Assembly: GCF_000426465.1 (NCBI RefSeq)
Contig: NZ_KE384528.1
Coordinates: 1-64,000 of the forward strand
From: Epilithonimonas caeni DSM 17710
GTDB lineage: Bacteria > Bacteroidota > Bacteroidia > Flavobacteriales > Weeksellaceae
Direction: 5' to 3'
DNA: 64,000 bases
The translations under genes and the position numbers were made by a program. Shown here in pieces: positions 1,303 to 49,608 of this stretch. Under the pieces are notes generated by a model, which did not search any database, was not told the origin of the DNA, and was given only the letters and a program-made list of their open reading frames with translations. Within the stretch, counting starts at the first letter, position 1, and each line of letters begins with the position of its first letter.

Positions 1303-2376
1303 TCAATGTCCCAACATTGTTTTCAGGTATTCTCTATTCTGTTTCACGGAAGAACAGTCGGGTCTTGATAAAGAAGCCCTTTCATTGTATTCATCTGCTT
1401 TTTGGTAATCTCCTAAAAAACATAAGCAAACACAAGCTTCAATATTCGGTATATAGCCTGTATGATCATCGTGAATAAACCCTACGGAAGTTGAGTGGGC
1501 AAGCCTTGTGGCTAAATCAAACCAGCGAAACGCCAAATCATAATTGCCTTCATCCTTATAGTAGTATCCCAATTCGCAACAAATCGATGCTCTTGGAATG
1601 TCATATTCAAAACTTTTGAGCAAAGTCGGAAGAATTTTATTTCTCTGACCAATATTTTTATAACAAACAGCCAGATCATAAGAAGAACTAATTATATCCT
1701 CAAACCAACCTAATTCCGTTGCCAAAAATTTCTCATAATATCCGATTGCCTCCTGCAATCTCCCATGATCCCTCAGTTCTCTAGCATAATAATATAGTTG
1801 TCTTGGGGAAAACTCTTTCCCACTATTTTCCAAATTTCTGTAAATATCAATATTTCTGGTAGAAAGCGCTTCCAATTTCGTTTTTTTATGCCAAATTTCA
1901 ATATCAGTATATTGCAGTTGTCCTATTAACGGAATACATTCGTGAACAGGATCGATCCATTCATAATTCCTGCTTCTTTTAAACAACCTTTCCCTGGTAG
2001 AATAGAACGCAGGTTTATTATTTTGATCAAATGACAAGACATATTTCATCGTGACGATCTCAACATCATTATTTAAAGTTTTCTTCAACTCATTGATTTC
2101 CTGAACCGATTTTTCAGGAACAATATCGTCCGCATCCAGCCACATCTGATAATCCATAGTTGCTTTGGAAAATGCAAAATTACGAGCGGCAGAAAAATCA
2201 TTGACCCATTCAAAATCGTAAATTTTGTCCGTGAATCGCTTGGCAATTTCTTTCGTTTTATCGGTAGAACCCGTATCAACGATGATGATTTCATCCGCAA
2301 AATCTCTCGCACTTTCCAAGCATCTTGCTAAAACTTCCTCTTCATTTTTAACAATGAGACACAAACTGATTTTCAT
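1303..2376 (-). CDS. Family 2 glycosyltransferase with C-terminal TPR-like region
   Basis: 357 residues. The N-terminal ~100 residues are a GT-A fold: LCLIVKNEE near residue 5, VDTGSTDKT near 33 and the metal-binding WLDADD near 79. The rest is helical with aromatic TPR-like repeats (YYYARELRDHGRLQEAIGYYEKFL region; later GYYYKDEGNYDLAFRWF). This architecture occurs in glycosyltransferases that modify peptides or cell-surface glycans (SunS-like). The acceptor cannot be told from sequence. It is divergent from the permease gene and has no obvious operon partner. Confidence 0.85.
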   Translation of the reverse strand: MKISLCLIVKNEEEVLARCLESARDFADEIIIVDTGSTDKTKEIAKRFTDKIYDFEWVNDFSAARNFAFSKATMDYQMWLDADDIVPEKSVQEINELKKTLNNDVEIVTMKYVLSFDQNNKPAFYSTRERLFKRSRNYEWIDPVHECIPLIGQLQYTDIEIWHKKTKLEALSTRNIDIYRNLENSGKEFSPRQLYYYARELRDHGRLQEAIGYYEKFLATELGWFEDIISSSYDLAVCYKNIGQRNKILPTLLKSFEYDIPRASICCELGYYYKDEGNYDLAFRWFDLATRLAHSTSVGFIHDDHTGYIPNIEACVCLCFLGDYQKADEYNERASLSRPDCSSVKQNREYLKTMLGH

Positions 2377-6000: not shown

Positions 6001-6028
6001 GTGTCAGGCTGAGCGGAGTCGAAGCCCT
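6001..6028 (-). repeat. CTTCG...CTCAGCCTGACA interspersed repeat, copy b
   Basis: Reads GTGTCAGGCTGAGCGGAGTC then GAAGCCC on the plus strand, the reverse complement of the GGGCTTCGACTCCGCTCAGCCTGACAC form. This looks like the fullest copy in the window. Confidence 0.7.
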
Positions 6029-7502: not shown

Positions 7503-7536
7503 TTGAGGGTTCGAAAGGCTCAGCCTGACAACATTG
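7503..7536 (+). repeat. CTTCG...CTCAGCCTGACA repeat, copy c
   Basis: Contains GGGTTCGAAAGGCTCAGCCT followed by GACAACATTGAT. It shares CTCAGCCTGACAACAyTGAT with the copy found inside prmC. Confidence 0.65.
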
Positions 7537-37082: not shown

Positions 37083-37131
37083 TTTTCGAGTTGGAGGGTT
37101 TGAGAGTTATAGAGTCTTTTTAAAAGGAAGG

Positions 37132-39537: not shown

Positions 39538-40530
39538 ATGAAACTCTTACGTCAAACTTCGGGGAAAAATGTCTTCTACATCAATCAAAATAATGAGAAA
39601 CTCAAAGACAAAGAAAAAATAGACTACATAAAGTCACTTGTGATCCCGCCAGCCTGGACAGATGTAGAGATCACAACCAATAAAAGAGCAAAGATATTAG
39701 CAGTGGGCCGTGATCAAAAAGGCAGGAAGCAATATATCTACAATCCAAAATTCCGGGCTAGAAAAGATGCTGATAAATTTGACAGGATCCTACATTTTGC
39801 AGAAAATCTCGAACATATGCGCCGCGTCACAGGGCAACATCTCCGCAAGAAAAAAATGTCCCGTGAAAAGGTGATGGCTGCGATGGTAAGACTTCTTGAC
39901 TCAGCCTATTTCAGGCCCGGAAGTCCAAAATATACTCAGCAAAACAAAAGTTATGGGTTAACGACGATCCGCAAAAAGCATTTGACAATCGAAGGTGATG
40001 AGATGATTTTTTCTTACAAGGGAAAATCGGGAAAATTTCAGGAAAAACATGTTATCAATTCGAAATTATCAAAAGTAATTGCCCAGCTTGAAGAATTACC
40101 CGGCTACAGACTTTTCAAATATTACGATGAAAACGATGAATTGATCATGGTGGAAAGCCAGGACCTGAATCAATACATCAAAGAAGTAATGGGAGAAGAA
40201 TTCTCTGCGAAAGACTTTCGTACCTGGGCAGGAACGATGATCGCCGCCGGAATCCTGGACGAACTCGGGATCTGTGAAAAACAGCAACAAAAAGAAATGA
40301 AAAAACGAATCCGAAATGCTATTGTTGCCGTTTCCGAAAAATTGGGAAATACACCTGCTGTCGCCAGAGATTCCTACATTGACCCAAGAATTTTTGAGCA
40401 TTACAAAAATGGGCAGACTATCCATTACTTTCAAAAAGAGATCAAAAAACTTTTGAAAAAGAACGAAAATCTTTCAGAAACAGAAATTGGCGTTTTGCAT
40501 ATGTTGAAATCTAAAGTAAAAGCTTCGTGA
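39538..40530 (+). CDS. DNA topoisomerase IB (poxvirus-like)
   Basis: 330 residues. The N-terminal domain has IPPAWTDVEI and RKQYIYNPKFR; the catalytic domain carries KKKMSREKVMAAMVRLLD, an AGTM(I) region near DFRTWAGTMIAA, and the nucleophile Tyr280 in ARDSYIDPRIF. It relaxes supercoils by single-strand nicking. The last two sense codons and the TGA stop lie in an interspersed repeat. Confidence 0.9.
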   Translation: MKLLRQTSGKNVFYINQNNEKLKDKEKIDYIKSLVIPPAWTDVEITTNKRAKILAVGRDQKGRKQYIYNPKFRARKDADKFDRILHFAENLEHMRRVTGQHLRKKKMSREKVMAAMVRLLDSAYFRPGSPKYTQQNKSYGLTTIRKKHLTIEGDEMIFSYKGKSGKFQEKHVINSKLSKVIAQLEELPGYRLFKYYDENDELIMVESQDLNQYIKEVMGEEFSAKDFRTWAGTMIAAGILDELGICEKQQQKEMKKRIRNAIVAVSEKLGNTPAVARDSYIDPRIFEHYKNGQTIHYFQKEIKKLLKKNENLSETEIGVLHMLKSKVKAS

Positions 40531-40545
40531 GCCTCAGCCTGACAG
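40522..40545 (+). repeat. CTTCG...CTCAGCCTGACA repeat, copy e, over a stop codon
   Basis: GCTTCGTGAGCCTCAGCCTG then ACAG. The TGA at 40528-40530 is the stop of the topoisomerase IB gene, so the gene ends inside the repeat. Confidence 0.65.
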
Positions 40546-48657: not shown

Positions 48658-49608
48658 ATGAAACTTTCTGAAATCAAAGCTATTTTCCAAAACGAACTTT
48701 CCGAGCTTTATTCTAAATCAGAAACAGAAGAATTATTCTCTATTTTTTGTGAACACTTTCTTGAACTGAATAAAATCGAGTTGAGACAAAATCTTGATAA
48801 AGATCTACCTGAAATCGATTCAAAAAATTTTTCAAAAGTTATTTTGGAACTGCAAACGGGAAAGCCTTTTCAGCAAATCCTTGGCGAAACCGAGTTCTAT
48901 GGAATGAAATTTTTCATCAATGAACACGTTCTGATCCCAAGACCGGAAACGGAAGAATTGCTGGAATTAGCGATTGGGAAGATCCAGGAGAAAAGAAAAA
49001 AGAATCAAATTATTGATATTGGGCAATTCGAAGGGCTTCGAGAGCCTCAGCCTGACAACACTGATAGTTTTGATCAATCGGACTCTATAACTCTCGGACT
49101 CTCAAACACTTCACTCAAAATATTAGATATCGGAACAGGGAGCGGAATTATCCCGATTGTTTTGAAGAAATATTTTCCGGAAGCTCAAATTTTTGCCATT
49201 GATATTTCTGAGGATGCTTTGGATGTCGCTAAAAGAAACGCCAATTTTCATAAAACAGAAATCAAGTTTATCCAAAAAGACTATCTGAATGAAAAACTTG
49301 ATGACACCTATGACATTATTATTAGCAATCCGCCTTACATCGGAATAGAAGAAAATATTGAAATTGAAGAATCGGTAAAAGGTTTCGAACCAAATATTGC
49401 ATTGTTCTCTCCTACTTCCGATGCTTTGATTTTTTACAGAAAAATTGCCCATGATTCTATAAAACACCTTTCCGAAAACGGAATGCTTTTCCTGGAAATT
49501 AATCAGAAATTAGGAAAAGAAACTTTGGATCTGTTTCAACATTTTTCCGAAGCTGTGCTTTTGAAAGATATTTCCGGTAATGACAGAATTATTTTTGTGA
49601 GGAAATAA
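48658..49608 (+). CDS. prmC: Release factor glutamine methyltransferase PrmC with inserted repeat
   Basis: 316 residues, about 35 more than usual. Methylates the GGQ glutamine of release factors. The SAM motif is LDIGTGSG (156-163) and the catalytic NPPY is N224-Y227. Before the SAM motif, residues 117-122 read IIDIG and are followed by a ~37-residue insertion (Q123 to ~G159) that contains a translated interspersed repeat and ends in a second copy of the LDIG motif. Without it the length would be ~279, normal for the family. The frame is open throughout. Confidence 0.9.
   Translation: MKLSEIKAIFQNELSELYSKSETEELFSIFCEHFLELNKIELRQNLDKDLPEIDSKNFSKVILELQTGKPFQQILGETEFYGMKFFINEHVLIPRPETEELLELAIGKIQEKRKKNQIIDIGQFEGLREPQPDNTDSFDQSDSITLGLSNTSLKILDIGTGSGIIPIVLKKYFPEAQIFAIDISEDALDVAKRNANFHKTEIKFIQKDYLNEKLDDTYDIIISNPPYIGIEENIEIEESVKGFEPNIALFSPTSDALIFYRKIAHDSIKHLSENGMLFLEINQKLGKETLDLFQHFSEAVLLKDISGNDRIIFVRK
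49033..49065 (+). repeat. CTTCG...CTCAGCCTGACA repeat, copy g, in frame inside prmC
   Basis: GGGCTTCGAGAGCCTCAGCC then TGACAACACTGAT, closely matching copy c (7503-7536). It is read as GLREPQPDNTD within PrmC. Confidence 0.8.

Follow-up and report, generated by a model that had tools for sequence, protein, structure and literature searches.

A REP-like unit read in frame inside PrmC of Epilithonimonas caeni, with a solo GIY-YIG nuclease as its likely partner

The prmC gene of Epilithonimonas caeni DSM 17710 carries an in-frame insert that we interpret, with a probability of about 0.73, as a copy of a REP-like and probably mobile unit accompanied by short tandem arrays, with a solo GIY-YIG nuclease as the unit's likely partner. 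The gene lies in the 64,000-nucleotide stretch analyzed here (positions 1 to 64,000 of contig NZ_KE384528.1, referred to below as the window). The insertion is no one-off: the unit was also found in four more genes, at a second site in PrmC of relatives, and on the two sides of a GIY-YIG gene. The features of the prmC region are listed with the evidence for each.

48658..49608, + strand: prmC, peptide chain release factor N5-glutamine methyltransferase, 316 aa (open reading frame, TIGR03534, PrmC_N and methyltransferase domains)
49009..49113, + strand: in-frame insert, residues 118 to 152 (35 residues, 105 bp; short linker in 9 of 23 genus genomes)
49034..49057, + strand: REP-like unit GGCT-TCGAGAGCCTC-AGCC-TGACA (copy number of the core pattern, covariation of the flanks)
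49081..49113, + strand: short array of the CTCAAACTCTC type, degenerate, following the unit (relatives have cleaner arrays in this position)

A preliminary description of the window had proposed that an interspersed repeat stands in frame inside prmC, and this was borne out. The frame is open, the product belongs to the PrmC equivalog family (TIGR03534 score, 227.8 bits; cut-off, 199.1), and a copy of the unit occupies positions 49034 to 49057. Aligning the query with 58 of 120 listed relatives (59 sequences) showed no variation in the NPPY motif (N224, P225, P226, Y227); among the relatives listed, a protein of a Chryseobacterium sp. MAG was closest (97%), followed by one of Epilithonimonas hungarica (84%). 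The linker that leads from the N-terminal domain (RPETEELLELAIGKIQ...) to the methyltransferase domain, at its first strand (ILDIGTGSG), holds the insert, which places 35 residues in the position of about 1 in short relatives (316 aa versus 282 in the shortest of the genus); the proposed extra stretch is thus present, but its length is not the 37 residues first given. For comparison, 6 residues separate two aligned stretches in the solved HemK structure 1sg9 and 44 separate them in the window PrmC. The insert contains the intact 24-bp unit GGCTTCGAGAGCCTCAGCCTGACA, whose core CTTCGAGAGCCTCAG lies at 49036 to 49050 and which is translated from 49036 as LREPQPDN (residues 127 to 134). Behind it, the array element GACTCTATAACTCTC occurs exactly at 49081 to 49095 (+) and again at 37102 to 37116 (−), in agreement with the reverse-complement copy previously placed near 37101 to 37115; with 2 mismatches allowed, two matches were obtained in 0 of 100 shuffles. 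Four further copies were located in the window by sequence match.

6002..6026, − strand: copy of the unit, CTCCG type
7507..7530, + strand: copy of the unit, one base off in CTTCGA; the best match named in the preliminary description (given there as 7503 to 7536), and a real one
37102..37116, − strand: second, exact copy of the array element GACTCTATAACTCTC
40521..40544, + strand: degenerate copy of the unit, 2 mismatches in CTCAGCCTGACAAC

It had also been suggested that the insertion duplicated the motif in front of the SAM loop (IIDIG and ILDIG). A hand count gave 10 identical bases of 15 between the two DNA stretches, and G006 also reads IIDIG, but VFNDG stands there in G022, which has the unit in common with the window; the relatives lend such a duplication no support, and it is at most just conceivable.

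Comparison with relatives revealed the expected gap. The linker from RPETEE to GSG is only 34 to 35 residues long in 9 of the 23 genus genomes, and filled linkers reach up to 97. Counting mismatches over 11 fixed bases, we found the unit in the linker of 13 of 23 genomes at ≤2 mismatches, of 12 at ≤1, and of 9 with an exact match. The linker is longer in 14 genomes, and 13 of these hold the unit by this rule; by eye, the G017 linker contains a decayed unit in addition, and that of G021 looks like a truncated one. Two types of linker unit occur, singly or in tandem, namely CTTCGACTCCGCTCAGACTGACAA (read VFDSAQTDN) and CTTCGAGAGCCTCAGCCTGACAA (read LREPQPDN), and they are surrounded by arrays of AAGATTC, CTCAAACTCTC, and CAACCAACAACC. 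The counter-case named in the preliminary description, the same loop made of unrelated DNA in relatives, is therefore not general, although some of the 120 protein relatives do have other linker sequences (e.g., VILNEVKRNEESLKDSS). Five loci titled Chryseobacterium (L274, L276 to L278, and L285) have short linkers and no clear unit.

PrmC is a hotspot for the unit at two places, the other being a loop just before NPPY. By eye, this loop is longer in 13 of 23 genomes and short (e.g., NEKLDDTYD) in 10, the window included. The exact core was present there in 5 of 23 genomes (G011, G013, G014, G020, and G022; loci L050, L034, L051, L033, and L031), in a loop with readings such as NEVFDSAQTDNDIFD (FDSAQTDN), and several genomes have degenerate copies. 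G011 and G014 have short linkers, yet they carry the unit at the pre-NPPY site of the same gene. Control windows elsewhere in PrmC matched in 20, 8, and 5 of 154 cases at ≤2, ≤1, and 0 mismatches, a control that looks high and is not clean, its 5 exact matches being this second insertion site. A further relative, P0058, has the same pre-NPPY insertion.

Next, we looked into the copy number and the symmetry of the unit. The repeat far exceeds its reversed control in the genome: CTCAGCCTGACAAC matched 44 times at ≤1 mismatch (22 + 22) versus once for the reversed control, and the pattern CTTCGAN{3,6}CTCAG matched 175 times (94 + 81) versus 4. This core pattern was present in all 23 genus genomes searched, at 20 to 175 copies each. 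The 108 distinct units whose flanks we evaluated come from the window, from six further loci, and from 100 of the 175 places in the genome. The base before CTTCGA was complementary to the base after CTCAG in 99 of 108 units (maximum of 1,000 shuffles, 44), and the next pair out was complementary in 90 of 108 (maximum of 1,000 shuffles, 53). Many base pairs are used at these positions (GG/CC, 24; GT/AC, 17; CA/TG, 15; TC/GA, 11), whereas pairs 3 to 5 showed no covariation (70, 6, and 16 of 108 versus shuffle means of 70.9, 8.1, and 16.1). A TGACA tag follows the unit on its 3′ side in 80 of 108 cases. The compensating changes in the flanks indicate that the unit has the form NNCT-TCGAnnnn(n)CTC-AGNN-TGACA, with dyad symmetry kept. 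Behind the symmetry there may be a symmetric binding site or, in single strands, a hairpin; the folding energies lent the hairpin no support, being no better than those of shuffles for three units (z = −0.39, 0.31, and 0.39) and one cassette end (z = −1.55).

Neighboring units mostly form inverted doublets. Among 30 pairs ≤120 bp apart, 26 were inverted (+ then −), 3 were ++, 1 was −−, and none was − then +; the 26 inverted doublets are 18 to 76 bp apart, 13 of them at 40 to 45 bp, so that inverted doublets of set spacing, the mark of REPINs, are found here. With 24 bp, a palindrome, and many copies, the unit also has the dimensions of REPs (20 to 40 bp, many copies), its stem being short, and like them it is mostly intergenic, with about 10 of the 108 distinct units, judged without full gene calls, inside conserved genes (five checked and five unchecked). 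Its tag is TGACA and not the GTAG or CGTC of the REP superfamilies. The intergenic zones in which units cluster also contain the arrays. Zones in one genome (L104 to L106; G002:C65 and G002:C39) hold six to nine units each, plus short direct repeats and masked stretches.

We compared four further conserved genes with in-frame units across the genus: pyrD, murC, rsmE, and the gene of a THUMP-like class I methyltransferase. The pyrD unit, read LRQAQTDK, adds 7 residues in G000 and is absent from 22 of 22 other genomes. The murC unit, read HSELVEE, adds 5 residues in G000, and a similar one is present in G017; G011 has it only at 2 mismatches, and 20 of 23 genomes lack it by the rule. In rsmE the unit is present in 10 of 22 located genes, some of which seem by eye to hold both arms of a doublet, and in the THUMP-like methyltransferase it is present in 10 of 23 genomes. 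At ≤1 mismatch these counts are 1 (pyrD), 2 (murC), 9 (rsmE), and 9 (THUMP-like methyltransferase) genomes, and the control windows of the four genes are clean (1/239, 0/342, 0/996, and 0/388). The unit is read differently from gene to gene, as LREPQPDN, as VFDSAQTDN, and, on the other strand, as HSELVEE. These different frames and the use of both strands are explained better by a DNA unit kept wherever the frame survives than by a shared peptide function. The earlier proposal that the repeats can move gains indirect support from presence and absence at species level, which is patchy and involves different genes, frames, and strands; movement itself we infer from the distribution of these sequences.

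Within the genome of the window, five further genes are candidates for holding an in-frame unit, namely those of HemD (L113), a P-type ATPase (L116), a B12/radical SAM protein (L128), the L133 protein, and mevalonate diphosphate decarboxylase (L137). We excluded short frames and those in which the unit is covered only ahead of the likely start (L115, L132, L164, L167, and L172). A match in atpA (L149), with a 6-base spacer, was dropped as chance, and USP (L124), MenD (L161), and L138 were left out as doubtful. On G000:C3, a nuclease gene (348186 to 348470) stands just upstream of murC (348586 to 349965), whose unit is at 349391. With the in-frame unit about 0.9 kb from a bracketed nuclease of the same genome, a local hop could account for it.

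The link to a nuclease started from a solo GIY-YIG gene standing between inverted units in L107. We searched the genus for PF01541 and inspected all solo matches, dropping L334 to L336, where there is no gene. The bracketed proteins are solo PF01541 domain proteins of 84 to 120 aa. Their clade of 17 genes was delimited by eye, with the flanks already known. All 17 of 17 have a unit ≤75 bp away on one side or more, and 13 of 17 have inverted units on both sides. Of the others, L295, L296, and L312 have no downstream copy that fits the pattern, their gene ends (GYDSAEPDN or GFDSAQPDN) resembling a decayed unit, and L323 has a downstream copy in the opposite direction. No unit was found ≤75 bp from any of 25 other solo GIY-YIG loci (some with decayed genes) or 5 UvrC loci. 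Among the control genes, a unit was ≤75 bp from an end in 2 of 23 pyrD and 1 of 23 methyltransferase loci and in none of the prmC, rsmE, and murC loci (23 each), with no inverted pair at any of them. Fisher's test of the bracketing gave P values of 4e-12 and 9e-8, but the 17 genes represent three orthologous places and are not independent.

Of the three inherited places, one is between murG and murC (4 genes), another is next to a pyrE-like gene (6), and the third adjoins a short-chain dehydrogenase-like gene (7); except for murC, the neighboring genes carry putative names read from their sequences. A nuclease of the pyrE-like place has 98 aa and one of murG-murC has 97 aa. The flanking units differ by place: CTTCGACAGGCTCAG-CC between murG and murC (one copy CAAG), CTTCGAGA(G/A)CCTCAG-AC at the pyrE-like place, and CTTCGACTCCGCTCAG at the third, with TG upstream (one CG) and CC downstream. 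The sequences thus suggest one variant for each nuclease lineage, an AC type at the pyrE place, a CC type at murG-murC, and a CTCCG type at the third. G022 has the pyrE-side cassette in the reverse orientation with respect to its neighbors. The murG-murC junction, located in 22 of 23 genomes, measures 2 to 9 bp in 8, 47 to 49 bp in 3, and 427 to 479 bp without a cassette in 7, and it holds the bracketed nuclease in 4.

In a family sample of 296 genomes, our genus included, 94 matched the nuclease at an E value of 1e-25. We inspected the flanks of 30 of those loci, 9 from our genus and 21 from other genera (19 from one genus and one each from two more). In the other genera, a unit lies ≤150 bp away on at least one side in 20 of 21 loci and on both sides in 16, 14 of these inverted; 11 of the 21 are again at murG-murC, and 10 match none of the three contexts. 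These flanks indicate that the bracketing extends over four genera, of which two are represented by a single locus. Plasmids have almost no members of the nuclease clade (2 of 72,556 records at an E value of 1e-15, with about 50% identity). Within the genus, 12 genomes without a bracketed nuclease have 48 to 91 units (mean, 72; sum, 869) and the 11 with one have a mean of 86 (sum, 946); G011 and G014 have the nuclease with as few as 24 and 20 units. Spread of the units may require the nuclease while their persistence does not; alternatively, they may be sites that it binds in some other role. A cassette variant in another genus (L359) has a flanking 46-base inverted repeat with a TGTCAGGCTGAG end and a longer middle part.

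The explanation that we propose joins these observations as follows. GIY-YIG enzymes cut DNA. By analogy with RAYT, a nuclease framed by inverted units would recognize units elsewhere and cut or nick them, and DNA bearing a unit would then be copied to another place during repair, copying at break repair being the simplest route. Units and short tandem arrays would have gathered in one tolerant linker of PrmC, which stays intact because the inter-domain linker accepts extra residues as long as the inserted length is divisible by three and brings in no stop; we infer that the loop is tolerated without a function. Other proteins of the genus would take up units alike, leaving a lightly decorated proteome, as in Rickettsia. 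A wider reading, which we hold tentatively and at a little under even odds, is that the Weeksellaceae have a REP-like system in which a GIY-YIG nuclease replaces RAYT, with lineage-specific variants bracketing the gene and with spread units landing in frame and remodeling protein loops.

An older origin of the PrmC loop would account for some of the same facts. The linker might have gained units once or twice in an ancestor and then lost one or both repeatedly by lineage, as would fit the linker start KIQEKSKKNQ, common to carriers and some noncarriers among the proteins, the resemblance of G021 to a truncated unit, and the degenerate copies at the second PrmC site. On a tree of the genus genomes from five joined proteins, whose backbone is weak, at least 5 changes are required to explain the presence of any linker unit (14 of 23 genomes by eye), and 0.0495 of shuffled labels needed as few. 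The two types occur singly and together, however, and each alone clusters no more than shuffled labels do (first type, 7 of 23 genomes, 5 changes, 0.19 of shuffles as few; second type, 11 of 23, 7 changes, 0.35). With shuffled labels doing as well at these rates, gains and losses of the linker unit are inseparable on this tree. The silent sites of the unit are also better conserved than those of the rest of prmC: in ten genomes that carry the LREPQPDN unit, codons encoding a shared residue were identical in 247 of 301 comparisons (82%) versus 6,265 of 9,774 (64%) in the rest of the gene, a level reached by only 2 of 261 eight-codon windows. Such conservation would be expected from recent arrival, from conversion by other copies, or from constraint on the DNA. 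With the PyrD unit confined to 1 of 23 genomes, we regard the older origin as somewhat unlikely. The same silent-site conservation suits ectopic recombination or conversion between similar short intergenic and linker stretches with no dedicated enzyme, as do the intergenic zones shared by arrays and units and the persistence of units in genomes that have no bracketed nuclease. This account is harder to reconcile with a PyrD unit standing where 22 of 22 relatives have no similar DNA and a MurC unit standing where 20 of 23 lack it by the rule, and we consider it rather unlikely.

That the loops were selected, the inserted residues or an RNA structure being useful in PrmC, RsmE, and other enzymes, seems improbable to us. 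Methyltransferases do account for three of the five checked genes, with the units directly ahead of ILDIGTGSG and NPPY in PrmC, FLIGPEG in RsmE, and DPARR in the THUMP-like methyltransferase; against this, the length, sequence, and repeat type vary freely among species, and the unit is read in different frames and from both strands in different genes. Transfer of the units by a RAYT (Y1_Tnp) transposase, as for classical REPs, is more doubtful still. PF01797 genes occur in 21 of 23 genomes, with four in the genome of the window, but no unit lies ≤75 bp from the gene in any of 32 loci, so that the flanking arrangement of REPs and RAYTs is not found here; only 3 of 45 inspected loci hold any unit, at ≥400 bp from the gene, and G001 and G021, which have no PF01797 gene, hold 86 and 48 units. 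With no units near PF01797 genes in the genome of the window or in the genus, RAYT was dropped as the partner. Two Y1_Tnp (RAYT-like) genes (L061, G000:C1:311138-314482; L062, G000:C4:346053-349397) have AELRRSD-type stretches in the translation of their flanks, which may represent another REP-like family in that genome.

Palindromic elements of Rickettsia are likewise repeats in frame in household genes, and we know of no nuclease partner for them. RPE-1 was reportedly described by Ogata et al. in 2000. It is an element of about 100 to 150 bp read in frame, several times longer than the 24-bp unit here; the prmC insert is 105 bp but composite. RAYT genes are known as single copy and vertically inherited, and the three inherited nuclease places resemble them in this. 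Solo GIY-YIG proteins, which we take to be YhbQ/UPF0213-like, have the PF01541 domain and a length of 84 to 120 aa in common with the bracketed ones, and only one clade is bracketed by these repeats.

The paper of Di Nocera et al. 2013 (PMC3733652) describes REPs of the GTAG and CGTC superfamilies as short, palindromic, tagged, and mostly intergenic, with some in frame inside genes and about the same recB site used in two Xanthomonas species; it also mentions the Rickettsia elements RPE-1, RPE-4, and RPE-6. The unit shares the palindrome, the tag, the mostly intergenic location, and the occasional in-frame position with those REPs, and it differs from them in its TGACA tag, in belonging to a Bacteroidota genus, in the GIY-YIG gene that it brackets, and in the linker that collects several repeat types. 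REPINs, as described in PMC3116915, have in common with it the inverted doublets and a gene bracketed by its own repeats; unlike in those systems, the enzyme here is a GIY-YIG nuclease, and the tags point inward in doublets and outward around the gene.

A literature search returned no match for the sequence of the unit, nothing on interspersed intergenic repeats in Chryseobacterium, and nothing on GIY-YIG with inverted repeats in Bacteroidetes; among the matches listed, from a coverage that omits most subscription journals, none linked GIY-YIG to REP-like repeats. In-frame REPs are thus already known, and this repeat family, its hotspots, and the nuclease link look new. Bacteroidota would join the bacteria with in-frame repeat insertion, and the genus would offer a clear comparison, in filled and empty relatives, of how repeats add loops to household enzymes. 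Should the GIY-YIG link prove causal, a second, unrelated kind of enzyme would be tied to REP-like repeats, and the spread of REPs would become testable with a 98-residue nuclease and a 24-bp target.

The surroundings of prmC hold two further elements. In six genomes (L294, L301, L324, and L326 to L328), GIY-YIG genes of a different clade (MEEFVVYILYS...) lie about 1.6 to 2 kb from prmC; they are decayed in some genomes and have no adjoining units. A search of loci L311, L290, L037, and L038 against Rfam at the gathering threshold gave Flavo-1 RNA (RF01705) in L037 and L038, loci of two relatives, as the sole matches, at 723 to 836 (−) and 1728 to 1841 (+), respectively, within about 0.7 kb of prmC.
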